64,000 nt of DNA, taken from an uncultured Bacteroidota bacterium. Lineage in GTDB: Bacteria; Bacteroidota; Bacteroidia; UKL13-3. A program made the translations under genes and the position numbers. Under the pieces are notes generated by a model. The model did not search any database and was not told where the DNA came from. It worked only from the letters and a program-made list of their open reading frames with translations. This document shows, piece after piece, positions 1 through 52,108 of this stretch. Location: positions 1 through 64,000 of the forward strand of contig CAINMV010000018.1 of the NCBI GenBank assembly GCA_903850915.1. Direction: 5' to 3'. Position 1 is the stretch's first letter. Every line of letters starts with the position of its first letter.

Positions 1-1
1 A

Positions 2-367
2 CCAACAATTTTACCCCCATTAAGTTTGTTTGAGGCCCTTGAAACAACCAAAATTCATAGCGTTGCAGGTAAGTTAAGTAAAGAAGCGGGATTGATTCAT
101 GTTCGCCCTTTTCGATCACCACACCATACGATTAGTGATGTGGCCTTGGTGGGGGGAGGGGGTAATCCTCAGCCTGGAGAAATATCCTTAGCCCATAATG
201 GAGTATTGTTTTTAGATGAATTACCAGAGTTTAAACGCCAGGTTCTGGAGGTAATGCGACAACCGTTGGAGGAACGTCAGGTGACCGTTTCGCGAGCTAA
301 ATTTTCAGTAGAATATCCGGCTAGCTTTATGCTTGTGGCATCAATGAATCCCTGTCCGTGTGGATAA
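2..367 (+). pseudogene. comM: yifB/comM 5' part, interrupted (Mg-chelatase-like AAA+ ATPase, partial)
   Basis: This is the central part of a YifB/ComM family AAA+ ATPase. ComM is a hexameric helicase that helps integrate incoming DNA during natural transformation. The gene enters from beyond the left edge, reads [20 protein letters not shown], and contains the Mg-chelatase core: the RPFRSPHH segment and the Walker B-like LFLDELPEF. It reaches the conserved MNPCPCG motif and then hits a stop at 365-367 supplied by the inserted element. The matching downstream half (GYFNHPEKDC onward) resumes at 7251 in a compatible frame, so one ancestral gene was split by the 6.9 kb insertion. The product lacks the C-terminal Mg_chelatase_C domain and is probably inactive. 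Identification is secure. Loss of function is inferred. Confidence 0.93.
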
Positions 368-477
368 AAGAATTATTTTGTATATTTGTTGTAACCATTG
401 ATAAATAAAGGAAAGTGATTTTAGTATTTAGTCGTTTATGTCAAATAAAAGACTATTTACCCGACTAAATAAACGAC
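357..477. other. left attachment region (attL) of the integrative element
   Basis: The 10-bp sequence CGTGTGGATA at 357-366 recurs exactly at 7251-7260. Removing one copy plus everything between restores an uninterrupted comM frame. Just inside this end lie TTTAGTCGTTTA (427-438) and CGACTAAATAAACGAC (462-477). Both recur near the right end: the first inverted at 7178-7189, the second directly at 7170-7185 with one mismatch. This arrangement of core repeat plus subterminal arm-type repeats fits a tyrosine-integrase attachment site. The exact crossover cannot be placed beyond the shared 10 bp. Confidence 0.75.
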
Positions 478-2462
478 AAGAAATGAATACATATAAAATC
501 CATTGTAAAAAGGTCGAGAGTAAGAATCTCAAAAATAAAGACTTATTCTATCTATATCTTTATTACCACCCAACAAAACAAAAACACCCAACATTATCTT
601 CATTAGGGATTAAAGTACCGAAAAGTTGTATTGTGTTTGAGAAAGTTGGTAGAAGTTATTCCACCAACTCAGTGGTAAAAATATCATCTAACTTACCCAA
701 TGAATACTTATTAAAAACTGGGTTTGATAGTGTAAACAAACTCAATAAATATTTACAAGAACAACTCGAAGAGTTTGTAAAAGTCAATGGTAAGAAAGAA
801 TATATTGAAAGAGATAAAAAGACTTTGAATGAATGGTTTGATATTTTAATTATGGAACTCGAAAATCAAGGAACTCGAAATAGATATGTTAATGTGAAGA
901 ACTTACTTGAATTGTTTCAGTCAGAAAGAAAAGGTGGAAGTCCTGTTATTTATATGAGTGAAATAGACCTTCAATTTATAAATCAATTTAAGAGTTGGTT
1001 GATGACTGAACCAAAATCACCAGAGGATTCTAGAAAACAGAATTCTTCAAATTCTTCTATTTATAAACTTAAGTGTCTAAAATCAGTTCTCAATAAAAGT
1101 CACTTCTCAAAGTATTATTCATTTATTGTAAAACCATTTGACCACATCACTTTAAGTGAAGTTAAACGACCTCATAAAGTTCTAACGATAGATGAAATTC
1201 AGGTTTTAATTAAAACGGATTTAGTTGAGGTTTATAGAAGAAAAATACCAACGAAAGAGGGATTGAGTTTATGGGGAAAACCAATTGAAGGTGGTGTAGA
1301 TGAACGAAATAAAAAGAATAGAAGATATACTTCAAAACATACTCTAAACGATGGGAGAAATTACTTTTTATTTCAATTTTTTTCACAAGGACTTAGAATT
1401 TCTGACCTTATTACATTAAGATGGTCTCACTTCATAAGAAGTCAAGGTGACCATCTTAAAATTGAGAAGATAATGGTTAAGACCCAAGAGTTAATTAAAG
1501 TACTTGTTAATCAGAATTTGACTACGATAATAAGTGAATACATTATAAGATATAGTGAATTACTGGAATCTGAAATAGTTGAATTGAATGAAATTAATAA
1601 GGAAATTGATAAAAGAAAAGTTTTGATTGAAAGTGAGTGTAATTATTTAGTCTGGGAGGAAGAGTTATGGTGGGATTATGTTCCAGAAGAATATAAAAAT
1701 ATATTATGTCAAAACATCAAGTTTAATAAAGATAACAACACCATAAAAAAAGGGTTTTACATTAATAGGACTATACTTAATCAGGTTACAGAATTGATGG
1801 GAGAAATTGATGAGGGTGATTTTACAGAAACCAAGAGTTTGAATGAAATAAATAAAATTTTATTCAAAATCAAGTTTAGTTCCAGTTCAAACCCAAATGT
1901 TATAGAAAACGAAGATAGAACAAGGTTGAGGTATGGTAGATTTATTAAAAAATACTTTCTAAAATTATTGATTCAAGATTACAATAGGTATGAGATATTA
2001 GTTAAATCGAAAAGAAATTCTAATACTGAGGAAGTTGAACTTAGAAAACATCACTTAATCAATGAAATGATAATGAAAGTTTCAAATTCACCTCATAAAG
2101 AGAATTTTGTGTTTGAGTTGTTACAAAATAAAGATTTTTTAAGAGTAGAAAAGAACCTTTTTAGTAAAATGGATAAGGAACAATATGTAAAGTTTCAATC
2201 TGTAAGAACTTATTATAATGGTTTATTGAAATTGGTTGGAGACCAATGTGGATTTGGAGATAAATTAACCTCACACGTCTCTCGTCACTCTTTTACATCA
2301 ATTACGATGGAACTAATTGATAACGTCAGTCCATTTGATTTGATGAATTCATTGGGTCATAAAAATGTATCAACTACTCAGATTTATATGAAAAGTTTTG
2401 GAGACAAAAGTGTTGAAAATATTAACAAAAAAGTTCAGAAATCACTGGGTCTTAGAAGATAG
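438..2462 (+). CDS. large tyrosine recombinase (integrase of the comM element)
   Basis: Site-specific tyrosine recombinase, most likely the integrase that placed this element in comM. It has an N-terminal arm-type domain, a SAM-like core-binding region (about residues 125-225) and a catalytic domain. Visible catalytic residues are Arg320 (GLRISDL), His613 and Arg616 (HVSRH), His641 (LGHKNVS) and Tyr650 (TQIYMKS). The Arg320-to-His613 spacing is about 290 residues, far above the roughly 100 usual in XerD-like enzymes, so about 190 charged residues are inserted inside the catalytic fold. The first ATG at 438 lies inside the terminal repeats. The in-frame ATG at 483 (Met16), just after them, may be the true start. 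It is transcribed away from attL, on the opposite strand to the rest of the cargo. Confidence 0.88.
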   Translation: MSNKRLFTRLNKRQEMNTYKIHCKKVESKNLKNKDLFYLYLYYHPTKQKHPTLSSLGIKVPKSCIVFEKVGRSYSTNSVVKISSNLPNEYLLKTGFDSVNKLNKYLQEQLEEFVKVNGKKEYIERDKKTLNEWFDILIMELENQGTRNRYVNVKNLLELFQSERKGGSPVIYMSEIDLQFINQFKSWLMTEPKSPEDSRKQNSSNSSIYKLKCLKSVLNKSHFSKYYSFIVKPFDHITLSEVKRPHKVLTIDEIQVLIKTDLVEVYRRKIPTKEGLSLWGKPIEGGVDERNKKNRRYTSKHTLNDGRNYFLFQFFSQGLRISDLITLRWSHFIRSQGDHLKIEKIMVKTQELIKVLVNQNLTTIISEYIIRYSELLESEIVELNEINKEIDKRKVLIESECNYLVWEEELWWDYVPEEYKNILCQNIKFNKDNNTIKKGFYINRTILNQVTELMGEIDEGDFTETKSLNEINKILFKIKFSSSSNPNVIENEDRTRLRYGRFIKKYFLKLLIQDYNRYEILVKSKRNSNTEEVELRKHHLINEMIMKVSNSPHKENFVFELLQNKDFLRVEKNLFSKMDKEQYVKFQSVRTYYNGLLKLVGDQCGFGDKLTSHVSRHSFTSITMELIDNVSPFDLMNSLGHKNVSTTQIYMKSFGDKSVENINKKVQKSLGLRR

Positions 2463-2513
2463 ATTTATAAAATCTACTATTCACAAAAAATGACTGAAAA
2501 CCACCTTTCTAAA

Positions 2514-2549
2514 CAAATAAACTTACTTCACTGGAAGTAAGTTTATTTG
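2514..2549. terminator. bidirectional hairpin between convergent recombinase genes
   Basis: A perfect 16-bp inverted repeat (2514-2529 and 2534-2549) with a 4-base ACTG loop. The stem is A/T-rich at its base, and the hairpin lies between the converging 3' ends of the integrase and the small recombinase, so it can serve both. There is no long uninterrupted T tract, so efficiency is uncertain. Confidence 0.65.
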
Positions 2550-2592
2550 GATCCTTTACATAGAATTTTCTTGAAGTTTTTCTTCTTTCTCG

Positions 2593-3183
2593 TTAAAAGG
2601 TTAAACTATCATATACATTATGAATTTCCTGTTCTCGAATACCTAAATATCTTTTTGTGATACTCATATTTGAATGACCAAATAACTCCATTAACAATAC
2701 TAAACTCTCGTTTGAATAGTTATTTACTTCCATAACTCTTCTTCCTAGAGTCTTTCTAAAAGTGTGAGTTGAAACATTACCTTCAAGTTTAACACGATAT
2801 TTAGACATTATCTCTTTTAGTTTTACATTAACATAAGATTTGTCAATTGATTTAGTCCCGTATTTATTAATGAAGATTAGTTCATTGAGATTTGATGAAT
2901 TAGTTTTCTTAACAATTCTCTGAACGATTTCTTTCAAATCTTTATTGATTTTGATACTTCTTGTCTTTTTGGTCTTTTGTTCATTTATAGTAAAGGTCTC
3001 ACCACTCAAAAGGTCTGAATATGTCAAAGTCAGTAAGTCTGATATTCTGAGACCAGTAAAAACACCAATTGATATCAATAAACAGAATTTATAATCTTCG
3101 TCTTTTTCTAATCTTGTTATTACTGAAATGAAATCATTCCAATCCATATAAGTTGTTGTTGTTATTTGTCCTTTCTTACTCAT
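2593..3183 (-). CDS. catalytic-domain-only tyrosine recombinase
   Basis: A 196-residue tyrosine recombinase made of the catalytic domain alone, with no SAM-like core-binding domain. The size is like that of the FimB/FimE inversion recombinases. All key residues are visible: Arg46 (GLRISDL), His140 and Arg143 (HTFRKT), His170 (FGHSNMS) and the nucleophile Tyr179 (TKRYLG). It therefore looks active rather than decayed. It lies last in the minus-strand cargo operon behind the restriction genes, separated by a 169-bp gap that holds two pairs of AACTTATACTT inverted repeats. Those repeats could be its binding or crossover sites. Its job is not evident: inversion, excision, dimer resolution or auxiliary integration are all possible. 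The family call is firm and the role is open. Confidence 0.85.
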   Translation of the reverse strand: MSKKGQITTTTYMDWNDFISVITRLEKDEDYKFCLLISIGVFTGLRISDLLTLTYSDLLSGETFTINEQKTKKTRSIKINKDLKEIVQRIVKKTNSSNLNELIFINKYGTKSIDKSYVNVKLKEIMSKYRVKLEGNVSTHTFRKTLGRRVMEVNNYSNESLVLLMELFGHSNMSITKRYLGIREQEIHNVYDSLTF

Positions 3184-3221
3184 TTGTTTTGTTTCTTATT
3201 ACAGAACAAATATAAGGATAA

Positions 3222-3335
3222 AACTTATACTTTTATATTTATTTCGACAAAAGTATAAGTTAAATTATACATAATATCGTAACTAACTGATTATCAATAC
3301 TATTAAACTTATACTTCTGACAAAAGTATAAGTTT
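3222..3335. repeat. two palindromic repeat pairs, recombinase-site-like
   Basis: AACTTATACTT and its complement occur four times as two inverted pairs. The first pair has perfect 13-bp arms at 3222-3234 and 3249-3261 with a 14-bp spacer. The second has perfect 12-bp arms at 3305-3316 and 3324-3335 with a 7-bp asymmetric spacer. GACAAAAGTATAAGTT is also directly repeated at 3246-3261 and 3319-3334. The 12-7-12 layout matches a tyrosine recombinase core site of the lox/dif kind. The repeats sit between the recombinase start and the restriction endonuclease stop. They could instead be repressor operators or weak terminators. Confidence 0.7.
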
Positions 3336-3352
3336 AGAAAAATCTATATTAT

Positions 3353-4456
3353 TTATTCACCGAAATATTTTTGAGAAATCTCACTCCATCTTATCTTGTG
3401 AATTACTTTCAATTCTTTATCAGAAACAACACTATCAGTGAAAATGGATAAAAACTCTTCTAAGTTTTCAATTAGTCTTAGATAGTATTTGAGTGTAGGT
3501 AAGAGACCATTGATGATAAGTTGACACCCGTGTATTTCTTTTAACTTATGAACTTTTGATATTACTTCACTATAATCATCTTCCTTTATTCCAAGAGTTG
3601 TAAGAATGTAATATCGTTTAGGATTATACTTATGAATTTTTTCGATAACCCTATTCACAATATGATTATCAATTTCAATTTCAAATTTTATTTCTAACGA
3701 CTCTAATAACATTCCATCACCTGAGAATACTTCGATGTCTCCACTTGTTTTAGATGTTCTATCTGATGAGGTATGACTACCAAGTTCTCCTAAGACACAA
3801 CCATCAAATCTTTTCATTTCCCTCAATAAGATTTGATAAATACAATAAAAAGATAAGACTGGAAGTTTTGAACCACCCGATATTTTATAGTTTTCAGAGA
3901 AAAACTCATTAAGTGAACCAATAATGTTTTCAATCGTAATTTTCTCAGGGTTCTCGATAGGTGAAACCTCAACTCTATTATCTTCTCTTAAATCAATTCC
4001 TCTTTTCAATAAAATTCTGAGAATATTTTCTGTTTGTTCTGAATTGTGTTGTATGAAATCTACTACTTCAAGAAAAGATTCTTTCACTTGTACACTTCCA
4101 ATTTTCCCATTATATTCCTTTAGGTAGGGATAAGGTTGTTCCAATGACCTTGTTAACCACCCAGACTCTGACATACTTGGTAACTCCAATTGTTTCATCG
4201 TAGGTGTTATGTATTTTGTATCAACACTACGACCTGAAAAACCACCTGTCATATTATCTTGATGGTAACGAATATCTTGATTTGGAAATAGAATTTTATG
4301 TATACCTAAAGTAATAATCACGGTAAACACCCCTCTTTGTCTTTCGATATTGTCTCCAATAACAATTAAAAAAGGGAGAATCTCAATTGGTATTTCGATA
4401 TCACTAATCGAAGAGGAGCTCTCGTAGATCTCCAATAATTTTTCCCGATGGTTCAT
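3353..4456 (-). CDS. type II restriction endonuclease, probably SacI-like family
   Basis: Restriction endonuclease partner of the adjacent cytosine-5 methyltransferase. I see GGFSGRSVDTKYITP (about residues 71-85) and ESGWLTRSLEQPYPY (97-111). I associate these with the SacI-like restriction endonuclease family from memory, without a search. A PD-(D/E)XK-type centre is plausible at Asp240 (SGDIEVF) with Glu255-Ile-Lys257 (LEIKF). Its start overlaps the methyltransferase stop by 53 bp, so expression is probably coupled and methylase-first. SacI cuts GAGCTC. One GAGCTC lies at 4416-4421 inside the overlap, but the site also occurs elsewhere in the window, so this says little about specificity. 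Restriction endonuclease is likely; the subfamily is tentative. Confidence 0.72.
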   Translation of the reverse strand: MNHREKLLEIYESSSSISDIEIPIEILPFLIVIGDNIERQRGVFTVIITLGIHKILFPNQDIRYHQDNMTGGFSGRSVDTKYITPTMKQLELPSMSESGWLTRSLEQPYPYLKEYNGKIGSVQVKESFLEVVDFIQHNSEQTENILRILLKRGIDLREDNRVEVSPIENPEKITIENIIGSLNEFFSENYKISGGSKLPVLSFYCIYQILLREMKRFDGCVLGELGSHTSSDRTSKTSGDIEVFSGDGMLLESLEIKFEIEIDNHIVNRVIEKIHKYNPKRYYILTTLGIKEDDYSEVISKVHKLKEIHGCQLIINGLLPTLKYYLRLIENLEEFLSIFTDSVVSDKELKVIHKIRWSEISQKYFGE

Positions 4457-5450
4457 TTGTTTTCTCTAATAAATTTTGTTCAATAATTTGTCTTGAAATC
4501 TCTTCTGTAATACTAACACTAACTGAATTACCAATTTGTCTATATTGTTCCCCATTTGTTGGGTGTTTAATATAATCTTCTGGAAACCCCATAATCCGAT
4601 AACATTCATTAATCGTTAGTTTTCTTACTTTATTCTCTTTTGGAATATAAATAAAAAACCTACCACTGGTTTCTTGTGATGGGAGGGTCGGGTGGTATCC
4701 ATCAACTGAATAAATTCTATTTGGTTGTCTATGAACTCTGTTCAGATGTTCTGAATTTGGTCTTACATCTCTAAATCCAGTTTTATTTCTATATCCAATA
4801 AATTTAAGACCAGAATCAGGTTGAACTTTCACATATTTACTATCTAATAAAGTATACTCATCTTCATCTATGTACTCAAAATTACCTTTCTTGTCTAAGA
4901 AGTCATTCAAAGGATTAGATTTTATGATTTTGATTTTATCAAAATCAAAGAAACCATATTTAGTTCCAATAATAAATATCCTTTGTCTATTCTGTGGTAA
5001 TCCAAAATCTTTAGTGTTTAATATTTTGTATGTTACGTTGTAACCCAAATCTTTTAAGGAACGAAGAATTACTGAGAATGTCCTTTTCTTGTCGTGATTA
5101 ATTAAGTGTTGAACATTTTCCAAGACGACAACCTTTGGTTTCTTAAAGTCTATTATGTTACAAACATCAAAGAAAAGAGTACCTCTTGTGTCTTCAAATC
5201 CAAGTTTCTTTCCTGATATACTAAATGGTTGACAAGGAAACCCACCTAACAAAACATCAAAATCTGGGATATCCTTCGGGTCAATTTTTGTAATATCTCC
5301 GTATGGTCTCTCACCAAAATTAGTTTCGTAAGTGTCCTGAACTTTAGAATTGAAATCCGAAGAAAAAACACATTCGAAATTATTTCTCTCAAATCCTATT
5401 CTGAACCCACCTATACCACAAAACAAATCTATAAACTTCATCGAACTCAA
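4404..5450 (-). CDS. DNA (cytosine-5) methyltransferase of a type II R-M system
   Basis: C5-cytosine DNA methyltransferase that transfers a methyl group from SAM to a target cytosine, protecting host DNA from the partner nuclease. The order of motifs is canonical. Motif I is FIDLFCGIGG (residues 6-15). Motif IV is GFPCQPFS with catalytic Cys73. Motif VI is ENV (111-113) and motif VIII is QNRQR (153-157). A target-recognition region follows, containing HPTLPS, and motif X is QIGNSV near the C-terminus. At 348 residues it is a normal monospecific enzyme. The nuclease gene starts inside its 3' end in another frame. It is part of the cargo of the comM element, and addiction to the R-M pair would stabilise that element. 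The target sequence cannot be read from the protein. Confidence 0.95.
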   Translation of the reverse strand: MSSMKFIDLFCGIGGFRIGFERNNFECVFSSDFNSKVQDTYETNFGERPYGDITKIDPKDIPDFDVLLGGFPCQPFSISGKKLGFEDTRGTLFFDVCNIIDFKKPKVVVLENVQHLINHDKKRTFSVILRSLKDLGYNVTYKILNTKDFGLPQNRQRIFIIGTKYGFFDFDKIKIIKSNPLNDFLDKKGNFEYIDEDEYTLLDSKYVKVQPDSGLKFIGYRNKTGFRDVRPNSEHLNRVHRQPNRIYSVDGYHPTLPSQETSGRFFIYIPKENKVRKLTINECYRIMGFPEDYIKHPTNGEQYRQIGNSVSVSITEEISRQIIEQNLLEKTNEPSGKIIGDLRELLFD

Positions 5451-5611
5451 TTGTATAATTTTAATTTTCTGAAAGTTACAAAAGACCCGTCAATACCCGT
5501 AAATCATATTCAAAATAAAGTTTGAAAAGTTATTGGTGTTAAGACATCTTTTGTAAGTTAATCTTGGGTGGAAAATTACATAAATAAAATGACATTTATA
5601 CAATCAAATCC

Positions 5612-6202
5612 TTAAGGATACTGAAGTTCAGTGTTTATTGGGTTTAACAATTTTGTAGTGTTGTAAATCAGAAATTCAGAATTGAGATAGTGAAGTTGTT
5701 TTGTATGATAGTTGATAAAATTATCTATGGAGTAAACCTCATCTCTCTTTTCATAATAGTTAATGTTAATACCCATTTTGTGAAAACAATTAGAGATATA
5801 TTGTTTCAATAAATTATGGGAAATTTCAGTGTTATTAAAACTCTTTTGTAGGAATATATGTGTGTGAAAACCTAATTCATCGATGTTGTCTGTTACATCT
5901 AAATAATTTGTTGTTACATTACCATTTCTTTGAACAGATTTAGATGTTTTAGAAAACTTACCCATATATAAATCGTCACCCAGAATAATGGATTTGTTTA
6001 TTTCAATTATTGAAACATATTTTAGATGTCGGTGAGGTTCATATATACCATAAAGTTTAGATACCTCTCTAAACATTTTCTTAATTAAAAATCTGAATTG
6101 GTTCAATGATTTCATTCCACTTATTGGTTTTATACATACATAAATGTAAGGGTCTTTGATGAGGTTCTTTACTTCTTTAAGGTAGGTTTCTTTAAGTGTC
6201 AT
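5612..6202 (-). CDS. HUH-type Rep/relaxase-like protein
   Basis: A 196-residue protein I do not recognise by overall similarity, but it has two features of HUH endonucleases in the right order. The first is a hydrophobic-flanked His-Thr-His (FHTHIFL, His113 and His115). Fifty residues later there is a Tyr-x-x-Lys (NYHTKQ, Tyr165 and Lys168), which could supply the nucleophilic tyrosine. Such enzymes nick one strand at an origin to start rolling-circle replication or transfer. Upstream in the same direction lie three small overlapping genes; downstream is the R-M pair. If real, this suggests the element replicates or mobilises as a circle after excision. The motif evidence is suggestive, and a structure comparison would decide it. 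Confidence 0.55.
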   Translation of the reverse strand: MTLKETYLKEVKNLIKDPYIYVCIKPISGMKSLNQFRFLIKKMFREVSKLYGIYEPHRHLKYVSIIEINKSIILGDDLYMGKFSKTSKSVQRNGNVTTNYLDVTDNIDELGFHTHIFLQKSFNNTEISHNLLKQYISNCFHKMGININYYEKRDEVYSIDNFINYHTKQLHYLNSEFLIYNTTKLLNPINTELQYP

Positions 6203-6324
6203 ATTTATTTGGATTTTATATATAGTAACAACTGACCCTTAAATTATAAGAGTAACAAATTATCAATATTGGTAAGTGTTTTTCATATCAAGTTTTATTT
6301 GGAGAGACTTGAACTCTCAATTAA

Positions 6325-6507
6325 TTACTTCCCTCTTTCAAGTTTTACTTTTATCTCATCAATCTGTATTTTCCATCTCAATATTTGTTTCTTTTTATTA
6401 TCCGTTTCTCCATTTAATTTCTTTTTATTACTTGAAATTCTGTCTTCAATGTTTCTTATCATTTGAAAATTCATAATATTCATTTTGAATTTTATCCAAT
6501 CTCTCAA
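6325..6507 (-). CDS. small hypothetical protein, predicted coiled coil
   Basis: Up to 60 residues, very rich in Lys, Glu, Asp and Asn, with a likely helical or coiled-coil C-terminal half (RNIEDRISSNKKKLNGE). It overlaps the preceding small gene. Starting at the internal Met at 6474 would cut that overlap to 29 bp. Its position in an overlapping run upstream of the HUH-like gene suggests it is translated, but nothing else supports it and no function is assigned. It could be a chance frame in low-complexity AT-rich DNA. Confidence 0.35.
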   Translation of the reverse strand: MRDWIKFKMNIMNFQMIRNIEDRISSNKKKLNGETDNKKKQILRWKIQIDEIKVKLERGK

Positions 6508-6703
6508 ACAGAACTTTTTCCATTATCTCAAACATCGTTCTTTCTGTATAAAGAAATTGGTTTTTATACTTCACAAATTCACGATGTTGAAGTTTGTGAA
6601 GTTCACGATGTAACTTTGATTTTGAAGACCCTATTAGTCTTCTTAGGGTATCAAAATCATAAAGTTTATCGTTTTCTTCTGATAGGTATCCTACGATTTT
6701 CAT
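6446..6703 (-). CDS. small hypothetical protein, possible winged-helix DNA-binding
   Basis: The open frame extends upstream to 6838, but the ATG at 6703 gives a compact 85-residue product that overlaps the upstream acidic gene by only 38 bp, so I chose it. The sequence DFDTLRRLIGSSKSKLHREL, followed by LQHREFVKYKNQFLYTE, has the pattern of a helix-turn-helix and beta-wing. This would fit a small regulator or Rep accessory factor. This is inference from pattern only. No family is recognised. Confidence 0.45.
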   Translation of the reverse strand: MKIVGYLSEENDKLYDFDTLRRLIGSSKSKLHRELHKLQHREFVKYKNQFLYTERTMFEIMEKVLFERLDKIQNEYYEFSNDKKH

Positions 6704-6953
6704 ATTGTTTTTTAATATTTTTATATTCTTTGACAAGTTCGTCAATGATATCATCATCTTCCGTTCTTTCAGAGTCCTCGTCATCAATTTCAACCATTCG
6801 TTTAAGTCGTTTTGGTAATTCATCATTTGTTTCCTCATCAGGGTTTTCTACCTCATCATCAAATTCAATGTCAGTTTGAGTGTTGTGGTCGTTAGAATAC
6901 TTTTCAAGTAAAAACCTGAAAAAGTTTGTTTGAATGTGTTTTTTCTTATTCAT
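6666..6953 (-). CDS. small acidic hypothetical protein, first gene of the element's minus-strand operon
   Basis: 95 residues: a basic N-terminus (MNKKKHIQ), a long acidic middle (residues about 28-72, dense in Asp and Glu) and a basic C-terminus ending RRIPIRRKR. It is the first gene of the minus-strand run that continues through the HUH-like, methyltransferase, endonuclease and small recombinase genes. Its promoter should therefore lie in 6954-7170, near attR. Highly acidic small proteins in mobile elements can act as DNA mimics or antirestriction factors, but nothing specific supports that here. Function unknown. Confidence 0.5.
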   Translation of the reverse strand: MNKKKHIQTNFFRFLLEKYSNDHNTQTDIEFDDEVENPDEETNDELPKRLKRMVEIDDEDSERTEDDDIIDELVKEYKNIKKQYENRRIPIRRKR

Positions 6954-7169
6954 TTTAGAGTAAGTTTTTTTATTGAACTGGAACGAAATGTCTTAGTCCA
7001 TAATCTTATATATCTAATTTCAATTTTGTTTATTGTACAAGTGGATTTTTTATGGACGTATATACATACAAGTACTGATGTTTGAATTCTTGAAAAAAAA
7101 CACTATATTGTATGTGTAAGGTTCTTTTCAAGTCTATTTCACTTTAAGATACTTTCAACCATATTTATA

Positions 7170-7260
7170 CGACTAATTAAACGACTAAAATATTTTAACT
7201 ATCGTATAACTAATTGAATATAAGTATTATATCTATTATGATTACTTGTTCGTGTGGATA
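7170..7260. other. right attachment region (attR) of the integrative element
   Basis: CGACTAATTAAACGAC at 7170-7185 matches 462-477 with one mismatch. TAAACGACTAAA at 7178-7189 is the inverted copy of 427-438. The core repeat CGTGTGGATA at 7251-7260 is identical to 357-366, and comM coding sequence resumes right after it. The element between the repeats is about 6,894 bp. Confidence 0.75.
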
Positions 7261-7735
7261 TTTTAATCATCCAGAGAAAGACTGTGTTTGTGGTCCGGGT
7301 GTGGTACAGAAATACTTGAATAAAATAAGTGGACCACTATTGGATCGGATAGATATTCATGTAGAGGTAACGCCAGTAAGTTTTTCTGAACTAAGTAGCA
7401 CCTCACGAGGGGTAGAACAAAGTGAAAAAATACGAGAGCGGGTAATTTTAGCACGGCAAATTCAAAACGATCGATTTAAAGGTGAAAACCAGGTATATAG
7501 TAATGCACAGATGAGCGGAAGACAAGTGAAAGAAGTATGTGAGATTTCGTTAGCTGGTCAAAATCTATTGAAGACCGCCATGGAGAGGTTGGGTTTAAGC
7601 GCAAGAGCGTACGATCGCATTTTAAAGGTATCTAGAACAATAGCTGACCTATCGGCGAGTAATGAGATCCGAATAGAGCATTTAGCAGAAGCAATACAAT
7701 ACAGAAGCCTAGATAAAGAAACGTGGGGAAACTAA
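7214..7735 (+). pseudogene. comM: yifB/comM 3' part, severed C-terminal region
   Basis: C-terminal portion of the comM product split by the element. Native sequence resumes in the core repeat and reads CGYFNHPEKDC, then the SGPLLDRIDIHVEV segment typical of YifB and the Mg_chelatase_C helical domain (LSARAYDRILKVSRTIADL, then IRIEHLAEAIQYR). An ATG inside the element (7214 or 7238) is in frame and could allow translation of this half alone, but it lacks the Walker motifs. About 170 residues remain, as expected for the missing end. It converges on purE with a 65-bp gap. Recombination between the 10-bp repeats would restore the gene. Confidence 0.92.
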
Positions 7736-16793: not shown

Positions 16794-17729
16794 TTATTCA
16801 ACCGATACGTAATATTTTATTTTCTCATAAATATCAGTTGTAACCAATATCACGTTTTTTAAATCGTCTATTTGTTTGAAATTTCCATGCTGCTGTTGGT
16901 AATTTACAATTGCATTTGCAATTTTATAACGGAGATAGGGGTGTTTTCTTAGCTCCTCGATATTGCCAGAATTAATGTTTAAGGTAGTAATTTTCGATAT
17001 GTCTATGGTTAAAAAAGGGGTTATTGAATCCAACAAAGTGGCGCGGAAACCATAAACCTCAATTAATTGCGATAAACTAACAAAACCACCCAATGCGACT
17101 CTATATTTAATGATACGGCGCGCATAGCCCATTCCGATGCCTGGTAAAAGATCAAGCGTTGCGGAATCAGCGGTGTTGATTTCGATCGTAAGTTTCTTTT
17201 TTTCAATATTTTGGGGAGGTTGCCCTACAAATTCTTTGATGCTGTTGTTTTCTGGCAGGGTGATATATGGACTTAGCGCTTCAAATTGAGTTTTTTTGAT
17301 GCTATATATCTTTTTAAAATCAGCTTTGCTTTTTATTTCACCAACTTTACTTCGATAATTTTGAATAATACGAATTTGTTTATTGGAGAGCCCCAATTTT
17401 TCAAACTCTTCGTTGCTTGCCGTATTGGGGTTAAAGGGAAAGTACAGCGTCGTATTAATTGTTTCATGATCAGAATTATCTTTTTCGGGATAAGAACCAA
17501 TATCGTTATCTTTTGAGGATAAATCTCTCCTATTAAGATCATCGAGTGCCTTTGCTTTTTCGATGATTAGCGAATTATTGAAAGGCTTTTGTGATATCAA
17601 ATTTTTGATATCACAAAAGAACCAAATGATGGTAGTTATAAAAAGTAAAGCGAGAGCGGCTTTATATTCTTTGCGTGAGAAAGTAAAATATTTTCTCAAC
17701 GCCTGGCTAAATTCAGGATCTATTTGCAT
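16794..17729 (-). CDS. membrane-anchored helix-hairpin-helix protein (ComEA-like)
   Basis: 311 residues: a short cytosolic N-terminus, one membrane span (about 24-43, ALALLFITTIIWFF), then an extracytoplasmic region with helix-hairpin-helix repeats. Examples are NPNTASNEEFEKLGLSNKQIRIIQNYR (about 100-126), NTADSATLDLLPGIGMGYARRIIKYR (about 185-210) and NINSGNIEELRKHPYLRYKIANAIVNYQ (about 250-277). Such HhH modules bind double-stranded DNA without sequence specificity. The layout resembles ComEA, the DNA receptor of competence, although it has more HhH units than classical ComEA. This is notable because comM, another transformation gene, is broken in this genome. Confidence 0.85.
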   Translation of the reverse strand: MQIDPEFSQALRKYFTFSRKEYKAALALLFITTIIWFFCDIKNLISQKPFNNSLIIEKAKALDDLNRRDLSSKDNDIGSYPEKDNSDHETINTTLYFPFNPNTASNEEFEKLGLSNKQIRIIQNYRSKVGEIKSKADFKKIYSIKKTQFEALSPYITLPENNSIKEFVGQPPQNIEKKKLTIEINTADSATLDLLPGIGMGYARRIIKYRVALGGFVSLSQLIEVYGFRATLLDSITPFLTIDISKITTLNINSGNIEELRKHPYLRYKIANAIVNYQQQHGNFKQIDDLKNVILVTTDIYEKIKYYVSVE

Positions 17730-52070: not shown

Positions 52071-52108
52071 AAAAATCATCGTTTACAAATAAACGATGAT
52101 TTTTTTTG
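52071..52108 (+). terminator. rho-independent terminator after recA
   Basis: Perfect 15-bp stem AAAAATCATCGTTTA / TAAACGATGATTTTT (52071-52085 and 52090-52104) with a 4-base loop and a T run to 52108. Confidence 0.9.

Follow-up and report, generated by a model that had tools for sequence, protein, structure and literature searches.

A probable composite recombination site made of paired palindromes next to a catalytic-domain-only tyrosine recombinase in a comM-inserted Bacteroidota element

What purpose is served by two palindromes that are built from the same arm and lie just upstream of the gene for a small tyrosine recombinase (TR)? In the window, i.e., the whole 64-kb stretch of Bacteroidota DNA analyzed here, four exact copies of AACTTATACTT are found at 3222-3232 (plus strand), 3251-3261 (minus strand), 3306-3316 (plus strand), and 3324-3334 (minus strand), which confirms their arrangement as two inverted pairs pointed out in an earlier note on this DNA. 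The first pair, termed the core and proposed as the crossover site (3305-3335, minus strand), is a perfect 12-7-12 inverted repeat with arms at 3306-3316 and 3324-3334 that measure 12 bp with positions 3305/3335 and 13 bp if 3304/3336 are counted, separated by the spacer CTGACAA (plus strand, 3317-3323); the 12-bp arms and the asymmetric 7-bp spacer described before were thus found as stated. Read on the minus strand, the core is AACTTATACTT ttgtcag AAGTATAAGTT, and its dimensions are those of crossover sites with inverted arms of about 11-13 bp and a spacer of 6-8 bp. In the second pair (3222-3261, minus strand), proposed as an accessory site and operator, the arms 3222-3232 and 3251-3261 are 18 bp apart (11-18-11). 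The distance between the two pairs is 73 bp, left arm to left arm, and both sit between the start of the small TR gene and the 3' end of a gene for a 367-aa protein. The octamer TATATTTG (3207-3214, minus strand), 7 bp past the right accessory arm, fits TAnnTTTG, a promoter element of Bacteroidota, and we take it to be a candidate promoter element of this kind.

The number of 11-mer copies as such is not unusual: at one mismatch, five are present in the 64 kb versus 2.77 expected, and 10 of 100 shuffles reach five. What is unusual is the presence of four exact, paired copies within 114 bp. Among 60 dinucleotide shuffles of window positions 1-7300, none contained two copies of the 11-mer, nor did any contain a perfect inverted repeat with 12-bp arms and a 5-9 bp spacer. 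The window as a whole harbors three other perfect palindromes of the size class of the core, at 2516, 17587, and 52072. One of these, at 2516-2547, is the inverted repeat AATAAACTTACTT..AAGTAAGTTTATT between two convergent recombinase genes, which is absent from the list of the terminator scan; the other two (17588-17617 and 52073-52102) are 12-6-12 palindromes outside the element under consideration.

The recombinase itself (196 aa, 2593-3183, minus strand) consists of a catalytic domain only (PF00589, E 9.8e-19). It carries the catalytic R-K-H-R-H-Y set of tyrosine recombinases, and an alignment of 24 sequences, that of the window among them, shows no variation at R46, K70, K73, H140, R143, H170, and Y179, which bears out the previous statement that the neighboring recombinase has all catalytic residues. 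Its AlphaFold2 model (mean pLDDT 84.5) has the fold of the XerA, XerH, and Cre catalytic domains, with XerA (5hxy, E 6.7e-8) as best PDB match and further matches to XerH, Tn1549 Int, and Cre; unlike Xer proteins and Cre, however, the small TR is devoid of a core-binding domain. Its size, which had been compared with that of fimbrial invertases, proved to be a poor guide to identity, as the NCBIfam model for tyrosine-type invertases gave 20.9 bits against a cut-off of 222.

Close relatives of the small TR were collected by a peptide-pattern scan using one genome per species (84,980 species), which yielded 22 relatives, 19 of which could be aligned at 61-87% identity. The family is uncommon, being present in 8 of 147 relatives and in 3 of 395 genomes of the phylum at strict E-values (own genome counted in both). 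In all 23 loci (window plus 22 relatives), the core arms could be assigned at an offset of 18 (11-7-11 geometry), and those of the second pair, always inverted, at an offset of 28 (4 loci) or 29 (19 loci); the distance from pair to pair is 73-74 bp in 11 loci and 91-98 bp in 12. This layout is kept although the DNA between the arms has diverged. Some of the accessory arms are weak (in L027-L033 and L035-L037), the left one of L035 having been placed by hand, and L019 shows an altered motif at the expected place of the core. A mechanical scan allowing up to 5 mismatches of 22 recovered a core next to the TR gene, at -112 to -194, in 21 of the 22 relative loci. A permutation test on arms evolving together within this close family gave a modest signal that is confounded by kinship (13 of 5000 swaps reached the observed value). 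The second palindrome as a further crossover site can be dismissed because its arms are 17-18 bp apart, and we infer that it is better read as an accessory site and operator.

Our preferred reading, to which we assign a probability of roughly 0.72, is that the paired palindromes together make up a composite recombination site for the neighboring 196-aa TR, with a core and an accessory/operator pair, of a compact resolution type. Two TR protomers would bind the inverted core arms (3305-3335) and exchange strands across the asymmetric 7-bp spacer, while two more would bind the wider pair (3222-3261), whose arms would be too far apart for strand exchange and which may have an accessory function and also act as an operator for the TR promoter. 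Since there is one site per element, the natural reactions would be expected to join two circular copies or two elements. The site could thereby mediate the resolution of multimers and, in the reverse direction, fusion with another core-bearing circle, and such a fusion would add foreign DNA right next to the core on its outer side, in keeping with the homology breaks at this position that are described below. The earlier idea that a candidate crossover site of the tyrosine recombinase type is accompanied by its own recombinase, which possibly acts on a circular form, has thus gained ground: all 22 closer relatives have the layout, as do 15 of the 28 distant ones.

Among more distant sequences, tblastn searches detected small-TR relatives in 249 plasmid and 63 phage records, some of them on complete circular plasmids with annotated replication genes. 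A strict first search for four like arms returned only L007 among 13 loci, and L043 was then spotted by eye. In a looser geometry search of 28 distant loci, run without L008, L009, L039, and L040 and with 20 shuffles each, 15 loci scored above all of their shuffles and 13 did not; L049, L054, L055, and L059 beat the shuffles by just 1-2 points, and for L064 only about 85 upstream bases were on hand. The layout is clear, with other arm sequences, in the Bacteroidota loci L007, L005, and L046, and less clear in L004. Lactobacillales plasmids (L043, L045, L048, L062, and narrowly L049) display offsets of 18 and 28 and a distance of 73 bp in five of five tested, and Bacillus plasmids (L053 and narrowly L054) have the same layout with a distance of 83 bp. 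The change in arm sequence affects both pairs, the arms being GGTGGCACTT-like in L007, GATACATGATTT-like in the Lactobacillales plasmids, and ATYTTACAYA-like in the Bacillus plasmids. Because some distant Bacteroidota as well as plasmids of Bacillota have the layout with different arms, the arms appear to track the TR, and this joint arm change at constant spacing is the best evidence at the sequence level that a single protein, the neighboring TR, may act on all four arms. Strict helical phasing of the two pairs was considered and discarded: the distances of 73-74 and 91-98 bp in the closer family would correspond to 7 and roughly 9 turns, but those of distant loci include 79, 83, 91, 92, and 101 bp, of which 79, 83, 92, and 101 bp do not fit. 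In L043 and L045, inspection by eye also revealed a terminator-like hairpin between the pairs. On the Geobacillus plasmid L074, a search with up to 6 mismatches of 20 and three spacer lengths produced 10 core-like hits, which were regarded as noise except for the TR-proximal one.

Could the arms be no more than an operator? All four lie upstream of the TR gene, and the operator idea draws on TAnnTTTG following the accessory pair at an equal distance in 7 of 23 loci, as would suit autorepressor sites for the TR or for an element-encoded repressor, with no crossover taking place there. We consider this unlikely: the core geometry is constant in 23 of 23 loci, the core spacer begins with YTG in 17 of them, the arm sequence changes along with the TR, and six Lactobacillales plasmids carry intergenic core-like sites far from the TR gene, all in one orientation.

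A different role, that of an attP-like integration site with the small TR as the integrase of the element, has to be weighed against the setting of the locus. The element of about 6.9 kb interrupts comM, the two pieces of which match PF01078, and joins it at 344-366 (left junction, plus strand, with the shared end sequence TGTCCGTGTGGATA) and 7238-7260 (right junction, plus strand, TGTTCGTGTGGATA); the element ends have TGTYCGTGTGGATA in common. In the congener G002, comM is uninterrupted at the insertion place (visible only in L068 of the three congener loci), and comM pieces were found in L019, L020, and L023 in addition to the window. Near one end of the element lies the gene for a large tyrosine recombinase of 674 aa with a SAM-like core-binding domain according to Pfam (438-2462, plus strand), which clusters with a protein in 8 of the 22 relative loci. 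This protein is probably the integrase of the element, and integration into comM would be a separate event, catalyzed by the 674-aa TR and not by the small one. Repeated CGACTAAATAAACGAC-like motifs near both element ends (428-478 and 7169-7190), noticed by eye, are possibly arm-type sites of the large recombinase.

The remaining genes of the element add to this picture as follows. The cargo includes a C5 DNA methyltransferase (4404-5450, minus strand; PF00145, E 6e-96; a type II methyltransferase according to PADLOC), whose gene overlaps that of the 367-aa protein (3353-4456, minus strand). For the latter, no family match and no PDB sequence match was obtained; it is probably a restriction endonuclease, judging from its position only. 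Genes for DNA methyltransferases or restriction-modification enzymes are located to the left of the core in the window element and in L021-L027; L034 is counted as well, solely because one of its proteins clusters with the L024 enzyme. Among the genes covered by the scan in L017, L018, L020, L028, L035, L036, and L037, none of this kind was seen. An orphan protein, likewise of 196 aa (5612-6202, minus strand), has only a sub-threshold Pfam match, and a poor AlphaFold2 model (mean pLDDT 49.3); relatives were found neither in 195 other genomes nor in the plasmid collection or the viral contigs. The idea of an HUH replication protein, suggested by an HxH motif seen by eye, received no support from relatives, from a family above cut-off, or from the model. 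Homology searches, family searches, and the structure model of this orphan thus provided no proven replication gene for the window element. A small protein encoded at 6446-6838 (minus strand) weakly matches a winged-helix family (HTH_34), scoring 22.2 bits where Pfam requires 27. Pfam scanning of seven element proteins revealed no Tn3-family transposase, and no RNA families or tRNAs were found in the window.

An attP-like site would be in line with homology among relatives often being bounded by the core and the TR stop codon, as in a unit with defined ends. When the window element was compared with 11 of the 22 close relatives, homology in seven cases ran as far as the core and ended no more than 3 nt from its outer edge; it ended at the gene start in L019, L024, and L025, and near the accessory pair in L034. 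Of 28 pairs of eight Lactobacillales plasmids, which are not independent, 27 show the break at -137 to -157, where the core has its outer edge, and one pair shares the flank beyond the core. In the pairs L073-L078, L073-L079, and L078-L079 (the last 97.7% identical), DNA is shared past the TR stop codon and the break is still at the core. Considering segments of at least 150 bp among the eight plasmids, 28 of 78 ends have a site centre no more than 40 bp away in both partners, 27 of these at the TR-proximal core. Homology also breaks at the TR stop codon in 25 of the 28 plasmid pairs, where no site at the TR 3' end that might explain this was seen by eye, so that part of the pattern may only mark the end of selection in fast-changing DNA. 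We nevertheless regard the attP-like reading as improbable: a search for another core at the opposite end was negative, the core arms are both TR-specific and not a hybrid with a target, a large TR and comM junctions of its own are present in the window element, and the Polaribacter loci keep one flank across the core. The Polaribacter locus L031 also contains four diverged intergenic repeats of about 115-155 bp left of the core (1205-1365, 2597-2751, 4924-5061, and 6054-6168), which are reminiscent of integron attC sites.

That the palindromes act at the RNA level, as hairpins or terminators of the restriction gene, appears very improbable to us, even though minus-strand RNA folds at -13.7 kcal/mol (z -4.2) and -12.9 kcal/mol (z -6.1), since a terminator scan of positions 2400-3500 found none and unequal core arms in several relatives (L017, L019, L022) would break the pairs.

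Second core sites were sought in the genome and in the relative loci. An exact match to the core is found at a single place in the own genome (37 contigs, 2.94 Mb), and allowing up to 3 mismatches adds one place (contig C14, 3 mismatches) versus eight for the reversed control pattern; the viral contigs contain no exact match. The above-mentioned mechanical scan gave four hits elsewhere (L019, L024, L030, L031), accessory-pair overlaps aside, with shuffles yielding 0-1.2 per locus, i.e., these hits are at shuffle level. In three further Bacteroidota subfamily loci (L012, L013, and L015), no core besides the TR-proximal one was detected, except for a 5-mismatch hit in L012. At L023 6242, 1.6 kb left of the core, a perfect left arm AACTTATACTT-TTG is combined with a poor right arm; this could be a half-decayed second site. 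A fim-type invertible switch, which would call for a partner site at another place, is hardly credible despite the size class of the recombinase and its weak match to the invertase model, because no convincing second core was found in the genome, the Bacteroidota loci have a single one, and two inverted sites bounding a switch were found in neither, leaving the earlier suggestion of expression control by inversion unsupported.

Additional core-like sites were encountered in Lactobacillales plasmids. Searches with the TR-proximal arm motif uncovered five sites in pCP1 and as many in a Desemzia plasmid, every one of them having a 6-bp spacer. From these sites, the pattern ATACAYGATTT-N6-ATTTCATGTAT (up to 3 mismatches) was drawn and applied to 10 chosen complete Lactobacillales plasmids. 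It identified 27 sites, one being readable on both strands and counted once, against none for the reversed control. Ten are TR-proximal, and the other 17 are distributed over six plasmids (4, 4, 1, 1, 2, and 5), nine of them in the four plasmids that did not supply the pattern. All 17 point in the same direction as the core of their own plasmid, and they lie between annotated genes, one overlapping a gene by one base, according to the PLSDB gene table, which is incomplete. They are too distant from the TR gene to be its operators. A low-threshold weight-matrix scan added three hits (L076 6405, L077 159 and 3664), and when the spacer was given other lengths, each plasmid yielded 0-3 hits per length, compared with 0-1 in shuffles. 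A single site is present in 4 of the 10 Lactobacillales plasmids and in both Bacillus plasmids scanned (6 of 12 in total), and the array plasmids (L071, L072, L073, L075, L076, and L077) carry 2-6 intergenic core-like sites in one orientation. In each of these six, one site has the spacer TAAGCA or CAAGCA, which in five is the site farthest from the recombinase. A segment with the cadD/arsR pair is shared, at 89% identity, by pCP1, where it occupies the second array position, and pBE5_3, where it occupies the first. On both plasmids the segment begins at a site; the opposite end lies close to a site in pCP1 but extends 266 bp past one in pBE5_3. As a further observation, the recombinase WP_023179913.1 is encoded on L072, L075, and L079, plasmids of Desemzia, Carnobacterium, and Tetragenococcus, with differing neighbors.

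Taken together, the plasmid sites and the homology breaks suggest module exchange, in a pdif- or integron-like manner, by a dedicated small TR. This leads to a broader model that we advance only tentatively and consider somewhat less likely than not: catalytic-domain-only TRs of Bacteroidota elements and Bacillota plasmids might take up circular modules at a composite site, consisting of a core and an accessory pair 73-101 bp away, beside the recombinase. The modules would be circular, bounded by single core-like sites in one orientation, and the process would resemble that of integrons but employ short double-stranded palindromes and a non-IntI recombinase. In Lactobacillales plasmids, it might have produced the arrays of one- to few-gene modules (cadmium efflux, antitoxin, bacteriocin immunity), and in Bacteroidota, comM-inserted and other elements may exchange restriction-modification cargo at the core. 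A literature search, thin on subscription journals and hence weak evidence of absence, found no description of the small-TR family or of the arrays. Two of the plasmids, pWNCR9 and pWNCR15, are listed in PMC4224046, in the available part of which core-like sites go unmentioned.

If the composite-site reading is right, a very small recombinase and a self-contained site of about 115-140 bp would constitute, in two phyla or more, a unit for resolving and joining mobile DNA. The arrays would then represent a further route, besides integrons and Xer/pdif, by which Gram-positive plasmids collect single genes. The constant arm spacing and the several natural arm/TR pairings would also offer a ready set for studying how DNA is chosen without a core-binding domain.

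How does this system compare with known ones? Invertases of the FimB/FimE type are small and devoid of a core-binding domain, features shared by the small TR, but our locus is not a fim switch, because there is a single site and no invertible segment was found. A parallel in position is TnpI/IRS of Tn4430 and Tn5401, as outlined in the accessible part of PMC7157771, where a tyrosine recombinase has a four-subsite site directly upstream, with the core IR1-IR2 for crossover; in Tn5401, TnpI binding to its site is described there to modulate expression as well. The window TR likewise has a four-arm site just upstream of its own gene, yet this is not TnpI/IRS because the accessory arms are inverted in 23 of 23 loci, whereas DR1-DR2 are direct repeats; the partner Tn3-family transposase was not seen here, and the small TR has a catalytic domain only, TnpI being set apart by description. 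Two inverted pairs also make up rst in the Tn4651 subgroup, with IR1-IR2 as crossover site and IRa-IRb, again according to the available text of PMC7157771. However, rst lies between divergent genes and is served by two proteins, TnpS and TnpT, whereas here one TR has the site upstream; the gene farther upstream runs in the direction of the TR, and the absence of a divergent TnpT-type helper sets the locus apart from rst. The pdif modules of Acinetobacter plasmids, in the portion of PMC13141974 at hand, are gene modules bounded by short XerC/XerD sites with a 6-bp spacer, a spacer length also seen in the Lactobacillales sites. Those sites rely on the XerC/XerD of the host and alternate in orientation, whereas the present composite sites have a dedicated TR; judged on orientation, with 17 of 17 extra sites pointing one way, and given the own recombinase, we do not count them as pdif. 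The arrangement in the six Lactobacillales plasmids is finally akin to that of integrons (IntI/attI/attC) in combining a recombinase-adjacent site with single intergenic sites in one orientation, but it does so with ordinary short palindromes and with a TR that is not IntI by NCBIfam (integrase_gron, 24.9 bits against a cut-off of 265).
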